Shown in pieces: positions 36,257-45,048 of a stretch of DNA of 64,000 nt. A program made the position numbers and the translations under genes. Under the pieces are notes generated by a model that saw only the letters and a list, made by a program, of their open reading frames with translations, had not been told where the DNA came from and made no database searches. The first letter of the stretch is position 1, and each line of letters begins with the position of its first letter. Source of the DNA: Endomicrobium sp. (lineage in GTDB: Bacteria; Elusimicrobiota; Endomicrobiia; Endomicrobiales; Endomicrobiaceae); the NCBI GenBank assembly GCA_031260705.1, contig JAISLA010000001.1, positions 62,001-126,000 on the forward strand. Direction: 5' to 3'.

Positions 36257-37291
36257 ATGAAGATTACGGCATCAGAACTTGAGGTGATTGTTTCGGGAGA
36301 GCTTATCGGCGACAAAAATATTGTTTTGACAGGTGTCAGCGGACTTTCAGTCGCGAAAAAAAACGATATTTCTTTCTTAGGAAATCTGAAATATCTTTCC
36401 GAAGCTTTAAAAACTGACGCTGGAATTATTTTTGTTTCGGCTGATATGGATATTTCTCAGTTTAAAAATAAAAATGTAATAAAAGTGTCAAACCCCCAGT
36501 ATGCCTACGGCATTGTCCTTTCTATTGTTGAAAAAGAGAAATTAGATACAGTAGAGAGAAATATACATATATCTGCCTCGATAGCAGATGATGCAAAATT
36601 GGGAAAAGATGCGTATATAGGACAAAATGTTGTAATTGAGTCTGGAGCTGAAATCGGCGGCAATGCAAAGATATTTCCCAATGTATATATAGGTAAAAAT
36701 GTGAAAATCGGAGAAGAATGTCTTATATATCCGAATGTTGTTATAAGGGATGATACCGTGATAGGTGACAGGGTTATTATTCAACCGGGGGTTGTTATCG
36801 GTGGAGACGGTTTTGGTTTTGCGTCCGCCGGCGGCAAAATATATAAAATCCCTCAGATAGGAAAAGTTAAGATAGGAAATGATGTTGAAATCGGGGCAAA
36901 CACTACAATTGACAGAGCTACTGTTGACGTCACAAGGATAGGCAGCGGAACAAAAATTGATAATCTGGTTCAGATAGCGCATAATGTTCAGATTGGTGAA
37001 AACTGCATGATCGTCGCGCAGAGCGGAATATCGGGATCGACGCGGTTGGGAAATAACGTGACAATAGCCGGACAAGTCGGAGTTTTTGGACATTTAAAAA
37101 TAGGAAATAACGTAACGATAGCAAGCCAGTCGTGTGTTTCGGGAAATCTGCGCGACGGCGAGCAGGTCGGCGGAAATCCCATATCGCCGATTAGTCAAAG
37201 CATAAAGATTAGAGTTTTGATGAGAAAGTTGCCAGAAATATACCGTGATTTAAAAAAAATAAAAAAAGATTTAGAGGATAAACAGATTTGA
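36257..37291 (+). CDS. lpxD: UDP-3-O-(acyl)glucosamine N-acyltransferase
   Basis: Third step of lipid A synthesis: moves a 3-hydroxyacyl chain from ACP to the 2-amino group of the UDP-sugar. 344 residues. An N-terminal uridine-binding domain ([24 protein letters not shown]-like text, FLGN) is followed by a long left-handed parallel beta helix of hexapeptide repeats (about 100-310), with [11 protein letters not shown] containing the catalytic His, and a C-terminal helix. The start has an aggatgaacaa site. lpxC follows two bases later. Confidence 0.93.
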
Positions 37292-37292
37292 T

Positions 37293-38162
37293 ATGGCAAA
37301 GCGAACGACTATTTTGAGAGAAGTTTCCGTTGAAGGAATAGGGCTTCATACCGGAAACAACAGCGTGGCGGTTTTTAAACCCGCTCCAAATGCGGAATAC
37401 GGCATTAGATTTGTAAGAACGGATTTGCCGAATAAGCCTGAAATCAAAGCTGTTTGGTCAAACGCTTCTTCAGGTTTAGCGGTAAGAGGAAGCATTATTG
37501 AAAAAAACGGCGTAAGAATTTATACGATTGAACATATTATGTCCGCATGTTTTGCTCTCGGAATTGATAATTTAATTATTGAAATAAACAACAATGAGCC
37601 TCCGATTTTAGACGGCAGCGCAAAAATGTTTGCAGAAACTCTTTTGAAAGGCGGGGTGAAAGAATTTGACGCTCTCAGAGAGTACTATGTTCTCAAAGAA
37701 CCTGTGCATTTTGAAGCTGGAAAAACCAAAATATCCGCATATCCGTCAGATCGGCTTGAAATAGAATGTATTATAGGTTTTGACCATCCGTTTTTGCGGT
37801 TCCAACAGATGTCTTTAAAAAGCTTAGACAAGGATTTCTACTTAAACAATATTGCTCTGGCAAAAACTTTCTGCTTTGATTACGAAATAGAACCGCTCCA
37901 AGAAAAAGGACTTGCTTTGGGCGGATCTATGGATAATGCGATAGTCATAGCTTTAGATGGAGTACACAATAAAGAGTTGTTGCGTTACAACGACGAATTT
38001 GTAAGACATAAAATTCTTGATTTGATAGGCGATATATATTTGGCGGGAAAACCCATAAGGGCTAAGATAGTTGCCGAAAAACCGGGACATCAGAATAATA
38101 TAGTTTTTGTAAAAGAATTTTTGAAAAAAGCTGTCAAAAGTTATGGGGATGGGGGAGGGTGA
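37293..38162 (+). CDS. lpxC: UDP-3-O-acyl-N-acetylglucosamine deacetylase
   Basis: Committed zinc-dependent step of lipid A synthesis, deacetylating the 2-acetamido group. 289 residues. Visible: the start RTILREVSVEGIGLHTGNNS, the zinc His in TIEHIMSACFALGIDN, the LDGSAKMF motif, and the second site RHKILDLIGDIYLAG with His and Asp ligands, followed by a C-terminal catalytic His in KPGHQNN. At 289 residues it is slightly shorter than the E. coli enzyme. It is directly followed by fabZ. Confidence 0.95.
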   Translation: MAKRTTILREVSVEGIGLHTGNNSVAVFKPAPNAEYGIRFVRTDLPNKPEIKAVWSNASSGLAVRGSIIEKNGVRIYTIEHIMSACFALGIDNLIIEINNNEPPILDGSAKMFAETLLKGGVKEFDALREYYVLKEPVHFEAGKTKISAYPSDRLEIECIIGFDHPFLRFQQMSLKSLDKDFYLNNIALAKTFCFDYEIEPLQEKGLALGGSMDNAIVIALDGVHNKELLRYNDEFVRHKILDLIGDIYLAGKPIRAKIVAEKPGHQNNIVFVKEFLKKAVKSYGDGGG

Positions 38163-38164
38163 GA

Positions 38165-38644
38165 ATGGACAATAATATTAAAAATGCAAAATCAACAGAA
38201 ACCGAAAGACTATTAAATATTGAGGAAATTTTAAAGTACATACCTCACAGATATCCATTTCTGATGATTGATAAGGTTAAAGTGGATACGGCGGATCTTT
38301 CAAAAGTCGTAGGATATAAGTGTGTAAGCGGAAATGAAAATTTCTTTCAGGGGCATTTTCCGGGAGTGCCGATAATGCCCGGTGTTTTAATTGTTGAAGC
38401 GATGGCGCAGACGTCGTGCGTTATGTTTCTTTCGAGACCTGAAATGAGAGGACGTCTTGCATATTTTATGTCTATGGACAAAGTAAAATTTCGCAGACCG
38501 GTAAAACCTGGAGATGTTCTTGAACTGCGCGTTGAGGTAGTAAAAGACAGCGGGAGACGCGGTAAAATGAAAGGCAGAGCTTATGTTGATGAAAAATTGA
38601 TAGCAGAAGCTGAATTTTCATTTATTATTGTCGACAAAGAGTAA
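38165..38644 (+). CDS. fabZ: 3-hydroxyacyl-ACP dehydratase
   Basis: Dehydrates 3-hydroxyacyl-ACP in fatty acid elongation. Its hydroxyacyl substrate is also used by LpxA and LpxD, hence its place here. 159 residues from ATG 38165, chosen because a gggagggtgag site precedes it; a GTG at 38159 overlapping lpxC is the alternative. Hot-dog fold with catalytic His in IPHRYPFLMID (about 31-41) and Glu in GHFPGVPIMPGVLIVEAMAQ (about 67-86). In some genomes lpxC and fabZ are fused; here they are separate but nearly touching. Confidence 0.95.
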   Translation: MDNNIKNAKSTETERLLNIEEILKYIPHRYPFLMIDKVKVDTADLSKVVGYKCVSGNENFFQGHFPGVPIMPGVLIVEAMAQTSCVMFLSRPEMRGRLAYFMSMDKVKFRRPVKPGDVLELRVEVVKDSGRRGKMKGRAYVDEKLIAEAEFSFIIVDKE

Positions 38645-38769: not shown

Positions 38770-39540
38770 ATGATTCATCAGACAGCAATAATTGATAAAG
38801 GGGCAGTTATTGAAGAAAATTCGGAAATAGGACCATATACGGTTATAGGTCCCGATACAGTTATAAAAAGCGGGACCAAAATACACGGACAATCTGTTAT
38901 TGAATATGCCGAGATAGGCAATAACTGCGAGATTTTTAATTTTTCATCGGTAGGCAAACGTCCTCATGATTTGAAATATCGGGGTGAAAAGACAAAAGTT
39001 ATAGTCGGCGACGGCACTACAATCAGGGAGTGTGTCACTTTAAATAGAGGTACTGCTGCGGCAGGACAGACCATTATCGGAATAAATTGCCTGCTTATGT
39101 CGTGCGCGCATATAGCTCACGACTGCATAATCGGAGACGGCGTAATAATAGGATATTCAACAGGACTTGCGGGACATGTTCAAGTAGATGATTACGCAGT
39201 TTTAAGCGCAAGCATAGGCGTGCACCAGTTTTGTAAAATTGGAAAATCCGCAATGATAGGTGCAGGCTCTATGATTAATATGGATATTGTACCTTATGTA
39301 ACGGCTCAGGGAGACAGGGCGGTTCTTGCAGGTTTAAACCTTATAGGATTAAAAAGACAAAAAATTAAACTTTCTGAAATTGAAGATATAAGAAGTGCTT
39401 ACAGAATACTATTTATGTCAAAACTGATGTTGAAAGATGCAATAGCAGAACTTGAAGATTCAATGTCGCCTTATGTTAAAGACATAACGACTTTTATAAA
39501 AAATTCCCAAAGAGGGATTGCAAGACCAAGACCTAAATAA
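38770..39540 (+). CDS. lpxA: UDP-N-acetylglucosamine (or GlcNAc3N) acyltransferase, copy 1
   Basis: Transfers a 3-hydroxyacyl chain from ACP to the 3-position of UDP-GlcNAc, first step of lipid A synthesis. 256 residues: left-handed beta helix from residue 1, VGDGTTIRECVTLNRGT, CAHIAHDC with the catalytic His117 (His125 in E. coli), GVHQFCKIG and the C-terminal helical domain ending KNSQRGIARP. A second, related gene lies 575 bases downstream. Which of the two uses UDP-GlcNAc and which a 3-amino analogue cannot be told by eye. Confidence 0.92.
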   Translation: MIHQTAIIDKGAVIEENSEIGPYTVIGPDTVIKSGTKIHGQSVIEYAEIGNNCEIFNFSSVGKRPHDLKYRGEKTKVIVGDGTTIRECVTLNRGTAAAGQTIIGINCLLMSCAHIAHDCIIGDGVIIGYSTGLAGHVQVDDYAVLSASIGVHQFCKIGKSAMIGAGSMINMDIVPYVTAQGDRAVLAGLNLIGLKRQKIKLSEIEDIRSAYRILFMSKLMLKDAIAELEDSMSPYVKDITTFIKNSQRGIARPRPK

Positions 39541-40114
39541 AGATGGAATAGAAAGCTGTTCTTTATTTTTTTGTTTTTTCTTCGAAGTTTTCTGTTGGTT
39601 TTATTTACTTTTGCCGCTTCCTCTTAACGTAACGAAAAGACTTTAAACTTTTTATCGTTTTACGGGCAGCATTTTTGTGCATTTGCCGGGATTGATAATA
39701 AACGCTCATATTATATCATTTGCAGGAATAACGATCGATGGTAGTGGAGAGGATATCAGCCGTTTTGTTCCCCAAATAAAAAGACTGTAATGTCTCTGTA
39801 TAAATATTTAATCCGTTCTTTCGTTTTTTAACAGAGAAGACATAGGATTTATTTTTAATAAGCATTTGTTATCGTCAGAATGCCGGATAATACTAGTTTA
39901 AACTTCGCTTATCACTAAAAATAGAGTAATACTGTCTTGCAAAGTGCCGGTTTTGCCAGATAAGGCTGATTTAATTCTTCATTTTTTCTTAAACAGCGAG
40001 GTAGAAAATGTTGTTGGCGATAGCGCTGGCAGAGAGCGGGAGATTTAAGTCTGTAGGGATAAGCAGAGTTTAAAAATTTTGTTGTCAGAAAAGAACATTG
40101 ACGGGGGGGGTGGA
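39541..40114. other. Decayed stretch between the two lpxA genes
   Basis: 574 bases without a complete gene. Fragments include MSLYKYLIRSFVF at about 39790, whose first 16 bases match those near 2920, and MLLAIALAESGRFKSVGISRV at about 40007-40072. These suggest one or two lost genes. The right end holds a run of eight G (40103-40110) directly before the start of the second lpxA. Confidence 0.4.
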
Positions 40115-40879
40115 ATGATCCATAAAACGGCAGTAATTGATAAAACCGCAATTATAGAAAACGACGTTATAATCGGCGCTTATGCCGTAATAGGGAAAGA
40201 TGTTACAATTAAGTCTGGAACTACGATAGGCTCAAACGTTTATATAGAATATGCCGAAATTGGCAGAAACTGTAAAATTTATAATTCTGCTTCAATCGGA
40301 ACTCCTCCTCAGGATTTAAGTTATGATAATGAACTTTCAAAAGTTTATGTCGGCGATGGCACTACGGCGCGGGAATTTGTGACTTTTAACAGAGGCACGA
40401 AAAAAACTGCTAAAACGGTGATTGGCAGAAATTGTTATTTTATGGTGTCATCGCATATAGCCCATGATTGCCGCATTGGTGACAATGTTATTATGGCGAA
40501 TTATTCTGCTGTGGGCGGGCATGTTGAAATAGGTGACGATGCTTTTATAAGCGCGCATGCCGGAATTCACCAGTTTACGAAAATTGGAAAAGGTACGATG
40601 ACCAGCTTGGGGACCACCGTTACTATGGATATAATTCCCTACGCTTTATGCGCAGGGTACAGGGCGGCGCTTAACGGTCTGAATCTGGTTGGCATGAGAA
40701 GAAAGGAAATAGCTCCTGAAGAAATCGATGCTGTTAAGGGCGCGTACCGTACGCTCTTTATGTCAAAAATTTTGCTCAAAGATGCTTTGGCGGAAATAGA
40801 ACAGAGCGCGTCCGTTTGCGTGCGGGAAATAGTTGAATTTATAAAGAATTCCAAAAGAGGAATAGCAAGACCAGTATGA
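40115..40879 (+). CDS. lpxA: LpxA paralogue, copy 2
   Basis: A second acyl-[ACP]--UDP-sugar acyltransferase of 254 residues. It keeps VGDGTTAREFVTFNRGT, SHIAHDC with the catalytic His117, and GIHQFTKIG, with the C-terminal NSKRGIARP, so it looks active. Compared with copy 1 it differs around the acceptor region (GTMTSLGTTVTMDIIPYALCAG versus SAMIGAGSMINMDIVPYVTAQG). I place the start at the ATG after a G-rich run; an upstream TTG gives an odd N-terminus. Being beside lpxI, an aminotransferase and a dehydrogenase, it may act on a 3-amino UDP-sugar or use a different chain length. Confidence 0.88.
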   Translation: MIHKTAVIDKTAIIENDVIIGAYAVIGKDVTIKSGTTIGSNVYIEYAEIGRNCKIYNSASIGTPPQDLSYDNELSKVYVGDGTTAREFVTFNRGTKKTAKTVIGRNCYFMVSSHIAHDCRIGDNVIMANYSAVGGHVEIGDDAFISAHAGIHQFTKIGKGTMTSLGTTVTMDIIPYALCAGYRAALNGLNLVGMRRKEIAPEEIDAVKGAYRTLFMSKILLKDALAEIEQSASVCVREIVEFIKNSKRGIARPV

Positions 40880-40950
40880 GTGCTGTCCGGGTTTATTACT
40901 GCTGTTTGCGGTTGTAATGAGATAAGATGGGGATAGAGAAAAGGTTTGTT

Positions 40951-41751
40951 ATGGAAAATATAGGGCTTATAGCGGGAAATGACAGATTTCCTTTTCTGGT
41001 AGCAGAAGAGATAAAAAGAAGTGGTGGCAGGGTTATCTGCATTGCTTTAAAGGAAGAAGCGGATGCAAGACTGGAAAAAGTATGTGATAAAACGTATTGG
41101 TTTTCTATATGGAAATTTCAGAAAATCATAGATGCTTTGAAAAGTGAAAATGTGGAAACTATTATAATGGCGGGGCAGATAAAGCACATTAGAATTTATT
41201 CGGCAATAAATATGGACGGTCGCGCGGTTAAAATAATGGACAGTTTAATCAGTAAAAAAGCAGATACGATTTTAAAAGCGGTAGCCGCTGAGTTTGAGAA
41301 AGACGGAATACATCTTATCCCGTCTCACGCTTATTTAAAACATCTGCTTGCCGAAAAAGGTTTAATATCGGGGAAAAAACTTTCTTCAGACGAAAATAAA
41401 GACGTCGAGTTCGGATACAAAATAGCGAAAGGGATAGCGGGTTTTGATATAGGACAGACTGTCGTCGTAAAAGACAAATCTGTTCTTGCCGTCGAATCGG
41501 TTGAAGGTACGGACGAATGTATCAAGCGCGCGTATAAACTCGGCGGAGAAAATTCTATAGCTGTTAAAGTTGCAAAGCCTAATCAAGATTTCAGATTTGA
41601 TGTTCCCGTTATAGGCGTTGACACCGTTGATATTCTGAAAGAAAATAAAGTGCGGGCGATGGCGGTTGAATCCGGCGCCACTTTAATATTAGATAAAGAC
41701 GAAGTTATAGAGAAAGCAGAAAAAGCGGGAGTTACTATACTGGCGGTTTGA
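40951..41751 (+). CDS. lpxI: UDP-2,3-diacylglucosamine pyrophosphatase LpxI
   Basis: Hydrolyses UDP-2,3-diacylglucosamine to lipid X and UMP; it replaces LpxH in many non-gamma Gram-negatives. 266 residues from 40951, where an aaagg site and the family start MENIGLIAGNDRFPFLVAEEIKRSG agree; ATG 40927 would add eight residues. N-terminal Rossmann-like domain, then the DUF1009 C-terminal domain with FDIGQTVVVKDKSVLAVESVEGTDECIKRA (about 163-192) and KPNQDFRFDVPVIGVDTV. No lpxH is seen in the window. Confidence 0.92.
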   Translation: MENIGLIAGNDRFPFLVAEEIKRSGGRVICIALKEEADARLEKVCDKTYWFSIWKFQKIIDALKSENVETIIMAGQIKHIRIYSAINMDGRAVKIMDSLISKKADTILKAVAAEFEKDGIHLIPSHAYLKHLLAEKGLISGKKLSSDENKDVEFGYKIAKGIAGFDIGQTVVVKDKSVLAVESVEGTDECIKRAYKLGGENSIAVKVAKPNQDFRFDVPVIGVDTVDILKENKVRAMAVESGATLILDKDEVIEKAEKAGVTILAV

Positions 41752-41845
41752 ACGTTTATATGCTTGCAGACGCTGTAGAAATATGCTGACGTTGTACTGT
41801 TAAAGTGTGCTGTGTTAAAATCGGATTTGTAAAAGGGGAAAGCAG

Positions 41846-42940
41846 ATGATAAACATGGCGCGCCCCGTTATCGGAAAAAAAGAAAGGCAACTGATTAAGG
41901 AAGTTTTGGATTCAAGAATTCTTGCAAGCGGCAAATATGTTACTTGGTTCGAACAGTCTTTTGCACGGTACTGTGGCGTAAAATTCGGGATTGCAAATGT
42001 AAATGGAACGGCGTCGCTTCATACAGCTCTCCTAATGTGCGGAGTTAAACCGGGAGATAAAGTTGTTACGACGCCTTTTTCATTTATAGCAACTTCAAAT
42101 TCAATTCTTTTTTGCGGTGCAAAACCTGTTTTTACGGATATTGACCCGAAAACTTTTAATATAGATCCTGTCGAACTTGAGAAAACGTTAAGAACAGAAA
42201 AAAATATCAAAGCTGTTTTGACGGTTCATCTCTACGGACTTCCGTGCGATATGAATGCAATTCTCAGACTTAGGGATAAATACAAATTCAAACTTATTGA
42301 AGATTCCTGTCAGGCGCACGGTGCCGAATTCAGAAATAAAAAAGTGGGTTCTTTCGGCAATGCGTCGGCTTTCTCTTTTTATGCGACAAAAAATATGATG
42401 ACCGGCGAAGGCGGAATTATTCTTACGAATGATATAAAAGCTGCCGAATACGGGAGACAGCTTATAAATCACGGCAGAGACGGACATTCGATGCACGCTG
42501 TTCTGGGATATAATTACAGACTTACGAATCTTGCGGCGGCAATAGGCATAGCTCAGCTTGACCAGCTTGAAAACAGGATCGCAAAAAGGATTGCAAATGC
42601 CCGAAAATATAGTGAAGCTTTTAAAGATTTGAGTTTCCTGCAGACGCCTTACGTTCCGGAAAACTGCAGACACGTTTTTCATCAGTACACAATAAGAATT
42701 TCCGTTTCCGAAAGAAAAAAATTTATCGGATATCTGGCGGATAACGGCATAGAAAGCGGAATTTATTATGATACTGTATTGTATAAACAGCCGTTTTATA
42801 AGCGGTTCGGATATGAGGACAGATTGTGCAGAGAAGCGGAAAAAGCCGCAGATGAAGTGCTGTCGCTTCCGGTTCATCCGTCTCTTTCAAAAGCAGATGC
42901 GGATAAGATAATAAAAGTAATAAAAGGTTATGAAAAGTGA
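41846..42940 (+). CDS. DegT/DnrJ/EryC1 aminotransferase, GnnB-like by context
   Basis: A PLP-dependent sugar aminotransferase of 364 residues. Seen: NVNGTASLHTALLMCGVKPGDKVVTTPFSFIATSNSILF, the Asp-rich EDSCQAHGAEF, the PLP lysine in SFYATKNMMTGEGG (about 182-195), and NYRLTNLAAAIGIAQL. Family members aminate keto-sugars bound to nucleotides. With the neighbouring Gfo/Idh dehydrogenase and lpx genes it matches GnnB, which makes UDP-GlcNAc3N from the 3-keto sugar. An alternative is a WbpE-like role in diacetamido-uronic acid synthesis. The ribosome site is aaaggggaaag. Confidence 0.82.
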   Translation: MINMARPVIGKKERQLIKEVLDSRILASGKYVTWFEQSFARYCGVKFGIANVNGTASLHTALLMCGVKPGDKVVTTPFSFIATSNSILFCGAKPVFTDIDPKTFNIDPVELEKTLRTEKNIKAVLTVHLYGLPCDMNAILRLRDKYKFKLIEDSCQAHGAEFRNKKVGSFGNASAFSFYATKNMMTGEGGIILTNDIKAAEYGRQLINHGRDGHSMHAVLGYNYRLTNLAAAIGIAQLDQLENRIAKRIANARKYSEAFKDLSFLQTPYVPENCRHVFHQYTIRISVSERKKFIGYLADNGIESGIYYDTVLYKQPFYKRFGYEDRLCREAEKAADEVLSLPVHPSLSKADADKIIKVIKGYEK

Positions 42941-43872
42941 GCGTAAAGACCGCCGTAATCGGAGTGGGATCTTTAGGACAACATCATGCGAGAATTTTAG
43001 GTCGGCATCCTAATTCTAAACTTGAGTTTGTCGTTGATACAGATGAAAAAAGAGCCGAAAAAATTGCAAAAGCAAATAAGACGGATCATTTAACTGAATT
43101 CGGCACGCTTATAGGGAAAATTGACGCGGCAGTAATTGCGGTTCCGACGCCGTATCATTATCTGGTGGCAAAACCGCTTTTGCAAAACGGCATACATTGT
43201 CTTGTCGAAAAACCTTTTACTCTAAATGTTGAAGAAGCTGAAGAACTTATAGAAACGGCTAAAACCGGAAATTTGGTTTTACAGGTAGGACACGTCGAGA
43301 GATTTAATCCTGCGGTTATTGCCGCGTCGCCGTTTATAAATAATCCGAAGTTTATTGAAGTCAGCAGACTCGGTCCTTATGACCCTAGAACCAATTATAT
43401 CGGCGTAGTGTTGGATTTGATGATACATGATTTGGATATTTTATTTTTTCTTGTAAAAGATAAGGTTGTTTCTTTTGAAGCGCATGGGGCAAAAATCCTT
43501 TCGGACTCTGAAGATATTGCAAAGGTCAGGTTAAAATATTTAAACGGATGCATGGCAGACGTGTCTGCAAGCAGGGTTTCAACGGACAAGTACAGAAGAA
43601 TAAGAATTTTTCAGCCGGACAGTTATGTTTCTCTAGATTATGCGGGAAAAAGCCTCAAGGTTTATAAGAAGAAAGAGGGAAAAAAAAAGATAGCTTCTCT
43701 TTTTGACATAGACGTTAAAAAACCTGAACTGCCAACGGATGAACCGCTTTTTTACGAACTTGATAATTTTCTCAGCAACGTTATTAAAGGGAAAAAACCC
43801 GCTGTTTCAGGCGAGCAGGGGAGAGATGCCGTCGAATTGGCGCTGAACATTCTGAAAAACATGGTGTTTTGA
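42937..43872 (+). CDS. Gfo/Idh/MocA dehydrogenase, GnnA-like by context
   Basis: NAD(P)-dependent sugar dehydrogenase of 311 residues. The Rossmann start VKTAVIGVGSLGQHHARIL, the CLVEKPFTLN motif with the catalytic-dyad Lys (about 87-96), VGHVERFNPA and the LDLMIHDLDI histidine (about 160-169) are present. GnnA oxidises C3 of UDP-GlcNAc so that GnnB can aminate it. The GTG start overlaps the stop of the aminotransferase (GTGA), which ties the two in one step. WlbA-like UDP-sugar oxidases are close relatives, so substrate is inferred from the lpx context. Confidence 0.82.
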   Translation: MSVKTAVIGVGSLGQHHARILGRHPNSKLEFVVDTDEKRAEKIAKANKTDHLTEFGTLIGKIDAAVIAVPTPYHYLVAKPLLQNGIHCLVEKPFTLNVEEAEELIETAKTGNLVLQVGHVERFNPAVIAASPFINNPKFIEVSRLGPYDPRTNYIGVVLDLMIHDLDILFFLVKDKVVSFEAHGAKILSDSEDIAKVRLKYLNGCMADVSASRVSTDKYRRIRIFQPDSYVSLDYAGKSLKVYKKKEGKKKIASLFDIDVKKPELPTDEPLFYELDNFLSNVIKGKKPAVSGEQGRDAVELALNILKNMVF

Positions 43873-43965
43873 CAAAAAGCGTAGGAATAAGAATTAAATT
43901 CGGCTGAAATGCGGGCTTTGGCGCCGCTGCTCTGACCAGATCGCTAAGCGTTTTATAAGGTAAAA

Positions 43966-45048
43966 ATGGCGAATGATAAAATCTTCATTTCTGCCGGGGA
44001 TCTTTCCGGTGAAATACATGCTTCAAATCTCGTAAAAGAGATAAAAAACATCAATCCTTTATGCCGTATTTCCGCTGTAGGCGGCGACAATTTAAAATCT
44101 GTTGCCGACAAATTTCTTGAAGATATAGTAAGTATAAATGCTTTCGGCTTTCTGCCTCTAAAGCAGATTTTCTATTTAAAGAAAGTCTTAAAAAAACTTG
44201 AAAGTTATTTTATTAAAGAACGTCCCGATAAAGCCGTGCTTGTAGATTATTACGGATTTCATATATTTGTTGCAAGGCTTGCAAAAAAATTAAATATTCC
44301 AGTTTACTATTATATAAGTCCGCAGGTCTGGGCGTCACGCGGCGGAAGAATAAAAAAACTTGCCGAAACAGTCAGAAAAATGCTTGTAATTTTTCCGTTT
44401 GAAGAAAAACTGTATAGAAATAGCGGTGTTGATGCCGTTTTTGTCGGAAATCCTTTAATAGACAGAGTTCCGGAGAAAAGGAGTTTTAAAGTATCAAATC
44501 AGCCCGTCATAGGTTTATTTCCCGGAAGCCGCAGAAGCGTAGTCAGTCGTCATATACCGGTGATCCTTGAAACTGCCAGAATACTTAAAGAAGAAATGAA
44601 CACAAAATTTGTAATGTTTAGCGTCTTCGGCAGTACTGTCTTTGATTTGCCTGAATACATTGAGCTTGAAACTTCTGGAGATTTTGAAAAAAGGAAATCT
44701 GTAGATTTTGCGATTTGTCCGTCGGGAACCGTAAGTCTTGAAAACGCTTTAATGGGAATTCCAATGGTCGTGATGTATAAACTGTCTTATTTTAACTATT
44801 TTTTTATGAAAGCAATTATAAAGATAAAATACGCGGCTATAGTAAATATTTTGGCCGGCAGAAGTATTGTGCCGGAATTTATACAATTTGATGCGAAACC
44901 GCAGAAAATCGCATCGTCGGTATTGGAACAGCTGAAAGTGCAAAATTATATGCCGAAAGTTGAGAAACTGCTTGCTTTCAGAAAGATGCTTGGAACGCCG
45001 GGCGTAAGCAGAAGAGTAGCCGAAATTATTTTAGAAAACCGGCAGTAA
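43966..45048 (+). CDS. lpxB: Lipid-A-disaccharide synthase
   Basis: A GT19 inverting glycosyltransferase that joins lipid X and UDP-2,3-diacylglucosamine to lipid A disaccharide 1-phosphate on the inner membrane. 360 residues. Visible family text: FISAGDLSGEIHASNLVKEI with the first Gly/Ser loop, VDYYGFHIFVARLAKK, PVYYYISPQVWASRGGRI, VGNPLIDRV, GLFPGSRRSVV and the donor-site ICPSGTVSLENALMGIPMVVMYK. It ends the lpx block after a 93-base gap. lpxK and waaA are not in the window. Confidence 0.94.
   Translation: MANDKIFISAGDLSGEIHASNLVKEIKNINPLCRISAVGGDNLKSVADKFLEDIVSINAFGFLPLKQIFYLKKVLKKLESYFIKERPDKAVLVDYYGFHIFVARLAKKLNIPVYYYISPQVWASRGGRIKKLAETVRKMLVIFPFEEKLYRNSGVDAVFVGNPLIDRVPEKRSFKVSNQPVIGLFPGSRRSVVSRHIPVILETARILKEEMNTKFVMFSVFGSTVFDLPEYIELETSGDFEKRKSVDFAICPSGTVSLENALMGIPMVVMYKLSYFNYFFMKAIIKIKYAAIVNILAGRSIVPEFIQFDAKPQKIASSVLEQLKVQNYMPKVEKLLAFRKMLGTPGVSRRVAEIILENRQ

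Follow-up and report, generated by a model that had tools for sequence, protein, structure and literature searches.

The stretch of DNA analyzed here (64,000 nucleotides, hereafter the window) comes from the 0.99-Mb, 17-contig genome of Endomicrobium sp. (Endomicrobiaceae, Elusimicrobiota), kin of the termite-gut protist symbionts, and carries a lipid A operon in the order lpxD-lpxC-fabZ-lpxA1-lpxA2-lpxI-DegT-Gfo-lpxB, all on the + strand. On balance, we favor the view that this operon builds lipid A from two nucleotide sugars, UDP-N-acetylglucosamine (UDP-GlcNAc) and its C3-amino counterpart (UDP-GlcNAc3N), with LpxA2 acting on UDP-GlcNAc3N and LpxA1 on UDP-GlcNAc or perhaps on both, so that a hybrid or mixed lipid A would result. 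In the proposed route, the Gfo enzyme would oxidize UDP-GlcNAc at C3 and the DegT enzyme would transaminate the product to UDP-GlcNAc3N. Judging by the residues, LpxA2, deprived of a pocket lysine, would acylate mainly the 3-amine of this sugar, and LpxA1, with the lysine in place, would acylate the 3-OH of UDP-GlcNAc and may accept both. By analogy with Capnocytophaga, LpxC, LpxD, LpxI, and LpxB would carry both products onward, giving C3 amide links on some glucosamines. Amide-linked chains are thus a probable feature of the outer-membrane lipid of this cell. The data show the gene order, the duplication, the purifying selection, the fixed difference at Lys76 and how it recurs in unrelated two-LpxA lineages, and the constant link between DegT and Gfo. 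The key features are as follows.

38770..39540, + strand: lpxA1, canonical-type LpxA (TIGR01852, 290 bits; LpxA1 clade, ultrafast bootstrap (UFBoot) 100)
38974-38976, + strand: codon 69 of lpxA1 (E. coli position 76), Lys
40115..40879 (from ATG), + strand: lpxA2, second LpxA (TIGR01852, 292 bits; LpxA2 clade, UFBoot 100)
40319-40321, + strand: codon 69 of lpxA2 (E. coli position 76), Ser
41846..42940, + strand: DegT-family aminotransferase occupying the place of GnnB (PF01041, 376 bits; own clade, not GnnB); catalytic pyridoxal phosphate (PLP) Lys182 within SFYATKNMMTGEGG
42937..43872, + strand: Gfo/Idh dehydrogenase of the GnnA family (UDP-GlcNAc 3-dehydrogenase; 7bvj, E 4e-52; NF040723, 211 bits, below the cut-off; tree)

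Every gene was found where the initial annotation had put it, and the order is not a matter of chance because it recurs across the family. The two LpxA proteins, the only ones in the genome, both scored above the TIGR01852 and NF003657 equivalog cut-offs and were identical at 140 of 254 positions (55%). The lpxA2 reading frame has an alternative TTG start at 40079, ahead of the ATG at 40115. The alignment also bore out the claim that the second, diverged lpxA keeps its catalytic His117: both copies retain this residue, equivalent to E. coli His125, and His122 and His125 were invariant across the 85 LpxA1 and LpxA2 sequences. In the tree, LpxA1 (45 sequences) and LpxA2 (40) formed sister clades, each with a support of 100 and their union with 98. 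Hence, the copies stem from one ancient duplication common to nine genera, and the split was placed after the branching-off of genera g29-g32. Both copies are under purifying selection, with ratios of nonsynonymous to synonymous substitution rates (dN/dS) of 0.03-0.37. G036 (L059), from a different family of this order, has a separate tandem lpxA duplication with Lys76 in both copies.

Only six sites, E. coli 46, 47, 65, 76, 137, and 140, showed near-fixed differences between the two clades. At position 76, lysine was present in 45 of 45 LpxA1 and in none of the 40 LpxA2 sequences, in which it was replaced by Ser (33), Gly (4), Asn (2), or Cys (1). The same position is occupied by Ser in the LpxA of Campylobacter jejuni (3r0s) and by Gly in that of Leptospira (3hsq). 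Leptospira LpxA reportedly requires UDP-GlcNAc3N, and the E. coli enzyme is said to use both acceptors about equally; the acceptor selectivity of Campylobacter LpxA is implied by its lipid A and that of Leptospira LpxA has been measured. The backbone of E. coli Gln73 has reportedly been blamed for the Leptospira selectivity. Gln73 is conserved in both Endomicrobiaceae copies, except for a His in LpxA1 of the window, so its side chain is not informative. Structures of LpxA from E. coli, P. aeruginosa, B. fragilis, H. pylori, and A. baumannii place the equivalent of Lys76 in the GlcNAc pocket, where the P. aeruginosa lysine bonds the 6-OH of the sugar, and Leptospira LpxA has Gly71 at this position (PMC7072397). 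We propose that an LpxA selective for UDP-GlcNAc3N can be recognized by the absence of Lys76 (E. coli numbering); this is our own marker, not an established definition, and LpxA2 carries it (Ser in the window, 0/40 Lys in the clade). These data fit a one-way rule, predicted from sequences, in which a retained Lys76 permits the use of UDP-GlcNAc and its loss accompanies selectivity for the amine. Residue 76 lends independent, sequence-based support to the earlier idea that the two copies divide the acceptors. As to the hybrid or fully amide-linked lipid A put forward with it, a hybrid or mixed product is favored, and the fully amide-linked form is less likely because LpxA1 keeps Lys76.

The same residue separated the two copies elsewhere. 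A genome search for relatives of GnnA turned up 80 named loci, and roughly 17 of the 50 genomes behind them hold two LpxA. The scan genomes, Endomicrobiaceae, and G159 made up seven two-LpxA lineages, including Simiduia, Ectothiorhodospiraceae, Methylococcales, and Rhodocyclales; the association with GnnA is built into this sample because the lineages were found via the GnnA-relative search. With the second copy defined by location (the LpxA outside the lpxD-fabZ-lpxA position), it was devoid of Lys76 in six of the seven. Column 76 ranked first of 255 in separating first and second copies when these were weighed together with Campylobacter, Leptospira, and control LpxA; among the controls, which were unselected Pseudomonadales and Bacteroidia, Lys76 was present in 69 of 70. 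On the LpxA tree, position 76 must have switched between Lys (or Arg) and another residue no fewer than 10 to 13 times. In the Bacteroidia sampled for Capnocytophaga-like pairs, GnnA-like genes were near-universal beside a single Lys76 LpxA, and therefore GnnA alone is not diagnostic. A putative second LpxA beside DegT/Gfo in G252 was rejected as a shorter O-antigen-type acyltransferase. We suggest, tentatively and at slightly worse than even chances, that a two-LpxA, two-sugar lipid A arose repeatedly, each time via a second LpxA losing Lys76, with Endomicrobiaceae using an unrelated aminotransferase for GnnB, and that a single residue helps to predict hybrid lipid A.

The two copies might instead divide acyl chain length, using the same acceptor and placing different chains at positions 3 and 3'. 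Acyl-groove positions (E. coli 136-140, 173, and 176) do differ between the clades, and two LpxA were read as chain division in Segatella copri (PMC12643348) and considered as such in Psychrobacter (PMC4557000), neither with a claim of GnnA/GnnB. We find this explanation unlikely, as it accounts neither for the loss of the GlcNAc-pocket lysine nor for its recurrence in second copies that accompany GnnA/GnnB. Moreover, the 3 and 3' sites of Capnocytophaga differ in both sugar and chain, so chain division may be an addition rather than a rival, and it possibly operates here alongside the acceptor division.

The supply of the second sugar would depend on the DegT/Gfo pair. The best solved relative of the Gfo protein was 7bvj (E 4e-52, 34% identical), which we take to be A. 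ferrooxidans GnnA; the two share the motifs DLMIHDLD and EKPFT. In the tree, Gfo grouped with 7bvj and lpx-linked GnnA, apart from the WlbA-like paralogs found beside other DegT genes. The DegT and Gfo frames share 4 bp (GTGA), and the overlap or a tight adjacency was kept even after relocation of the pair, as befits a sugar aminotransferase coupled to GnnA. The catalytic Lys182 of DegT was invariant. DegT adjoins Gfo only within the order; elsewhere in the phylum, Gfo usually occurs without it. In most Elusimicrobiota, and also in many Desulfobacterota, Nitrospirota, and Omnitrophota, a GnnA-family Gfo gene flanks lpxB or lies between it and lpxI, and no aminotransferase gene is close by (loci L064, L067, L069-L072, L080, L136, L153, L158-L164, L187, and L189).

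The survey of the family covered 77 Endomicrobiaceae genomes. In nine genera (g1, g21-g28), almost every member with lipid A genes has two LpxA, and five genera had one LpxA or none. LpxA1 was the sole copy in six members of the genus of the window, and DegT and Gfo are retained in five of these. In G018, Gfo was lost, DegT was reduced to a remnant, and the only LpxA was a Lys76 LpxA1, a natural case that we count in favor of the two-sugar reading. In G025, lpxA1 was fragmented, LpxA2 was intact, and the DegT/Gfo pair was present. Genera g27, g29, and g32 have the pair away from the lpx genes, with the overlap retained; in g29 and g32 (L351-L357), it adjoins genes for OmpA, FadL-like, nucleotidyltransferase-like, and spermine-synthase-like proteins, and no glycan cluster or other sugar genes surround the relocated pair. 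Genera g29 and g32 were at one point taken as free of DegT/Gfo; this was rejected, as the pair, absent near lpx, was found elsewhere by a genome search. The rule "no pair, no LpxA2" therefore has G018 as its single example. In the complete 1.1-Mb genome G067 (L088, C1 871000-890900), lpxD, lpxC, lpxA, lpxI, DegT, Gfo, and lpxB are all broken by stop codons and fabZ looks intact; the lipid A genes here are decaying together.

Several observations weigh against the two-sugar interpretation. Five reduced species retain LpxA1 and the DegT/Gfo pair without LpxA2. Residue 76 contacts the 6-OH, which leaves a preference for the C3 amine upon loss of Lys unexplained. Nor is this loss required: the pair co-occurs with a Lys76 LpxA in Geobacter and in the single-copy Endomicrobiaceae, cases that also fit the one-way rule. 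Rhodocyclales are the exception among the two-LpxA lineages, with Lys76 in both copies, and G190 (L341) and G270 (L329) have a non-Lys76 LpxA (Ala or Asn) with no clear GnnA found there. The phylogeny-corrected independent-pairs test gave 2.5 pairs in the same and 0.2 in the opposite direction (p 0.5), the pairs being too few. No lipid A chemistry or structure from Elusimicrobiota was found in the open-licence papers. Finally, DegT fell outside the lpx-linked GnnB clade into a clade of its own, and a joint clade was rejected (approximately unbiased test, p-AU 2.2e-11); the GnnB clade in this tree consisted of lpx-linked proteobacterial sequences, with the GnnB of Leptospira, Campylobacter, and A. 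ferrooxidans outside the sample. The PLP motif of DegT is TGEGG, as in perosamine synthase and, similarly, ArnB, and that of GnnB is GDGG. The place of GnnB is therefore filled without orthology. Of the GnnA/GnnB-like pair named in the initial annotation, the Gfo half held on the strength of 7bvj, the motifs, and the tree, and the likeness of DegT to GnnB is one of position and logic.

DegT and Gfo might instead make another amino sugar, with a C4 amine or as a C3 epimer, in which case the acceptor of LpxA2 would not be UDP-GlcNAc3N. The TGEGG-type motif common to perosamine synthase and ArnB points this way, and so does the single-sequence search, in which the best solved relative of DegT was perosamine synthase and proteobacterial GnnB was closest to 7b0d, WbpE, and QdtB. 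The whole-family DegT profile, however, ranked 7b0d first, then perosamine synthase and then the C3 enzyme QdtB, a fold search against the PDB gave no separation between C3 and C4 aminotransferases, and the only coupled partner of DegT is an enzyme of the UDP-GlcNAc 3-dehydrogenase family. We consider this explanation quite unlikely. That the pair feeds another glycan (an O-chain or capsule) and sits in the operon by history, with LpxA2 an ordinary redundant copy, is very improbable: the pair does lie away from lpx genes in g27, g29, and g32, and elsewhere Gfo often sits next to lpxB with no DegT, but the relocated pair is not within a glycan cluster and LpxA2 shows purifying selection across nine genera together with a fixed pocket change.

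The remaining genes of the operon are listed below.

36257..37291, + strand: lpxD, N-acyltransferase (open reading frame named by synteny and sequence, no family-library scan)
37293..38162, + strand: lpxC (TIGR00325, 230 bits, above the cut-off)
38159..38644, + strand: fabZ (TIGR01750, 169 bits, above the cut-off)
40927..41751, + strand: lpxI, UDP-diacylglucosamine hydrolase (Pfam LpxI_N and LpxI_C above the cut-off; under the NCBIfam equivalog cut-off)
43966..45048, + strand: lpxB, disaccharide synthase (Pfam LpxB, 236 bits; TIGR00215 right at the cut-off)

Between lpxA1 and lpxA2, about 570 bases (39541-40114) hold no clear gene, a spacing unlike that of most relatives, whose copies overlap or directly adjoin each other. 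Upstream, the window contains two genes of the heptosyltransferase family, consistent with the production of a lipopolysaccharide core, and Rfam had no matches in the window. One family in the class has LpxA frames of 434-466 codons (L070, L072, L075, L076, and L078), an excess of about 180 over the usual length, and a separate fabZ was not seen near these frames, which are possibly FabZ-LpxA fusions.

The distribution suggests a likely order of events: an orphan GnnA stood beside lpxI, an unrelated DegT was gained, LpxA was duplicated, and one copy lost Lys76. If the two-sugar reading is true, hybrid lipid A would be ancient and maintained by selection throughout an entire family of gut bacteria and protist symbionts, made via a different aminotransferase, and one pocket residue would predict from genomes the hybrid or amide-linked lipid A that now needs chemistry. 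The prediction is directly testable in the cultured Endomicrobium proavitum; G071, which we take to be this species, has the same operon with two LpxA.

The combination of two LpxA, GnnA/GnnB, and a hybrid lipid A has a published precedent. Capnocytophaga canimorsus carries gnnA and gnnB along with lpxA and lpxA', and its lipid A has been proven to be a GlcN3N'-GlcN hybrid, with 16:0(3-OH) amide-linked at 3' and i15:0(3-OH) ester-linked at 3 (PMC3342949); the initial statement that no two LpxA had been described with such genes was wrong. The systems are alike in having two LpxA genes, GnnA, and a GnnB function (putative in Endomicrobium), but in Endomicrobium all the genes lie in one operon, and the aminotransferase falls outside the clade of the lpx-linked GnnB in the DegT tree. 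As far as the searched open-licence papers show, the new elements are the tandem LpxA copies within one operon across Endomicrobiaceae, an aminotransferase of a different kind, and the repeated residue-76 pattern. In Acidithiobacillus ferrooxidans, gnnA and gnnB reportedly lie between lpxA and lpxB, a likeness to the GnnA-family enzyme and DegT aminotransferase found between these genes here; that organism has one LpxA instead of two, and the lpx-linked GnnB clade of other proteobacteria excludes the Endomicrobium DegT. The LpxA of Leptospira interrogans and Campylobacter jejuni (3hsq, 3r0s) resemble LpxA2 in the small residue at position 76, but each is a single LpxA, whereas the selectivity of LpxA2 is predicted from its sequence. 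Simiduia aestuariiviva (L126/G106) likewise has tandem Lys76 and Ser76 lpxA copies beside a Gfo-DegT-lpxB group, known here from genes alone, although its duplication is a separate one and its DegT is of the proteobacterial GnnB type.
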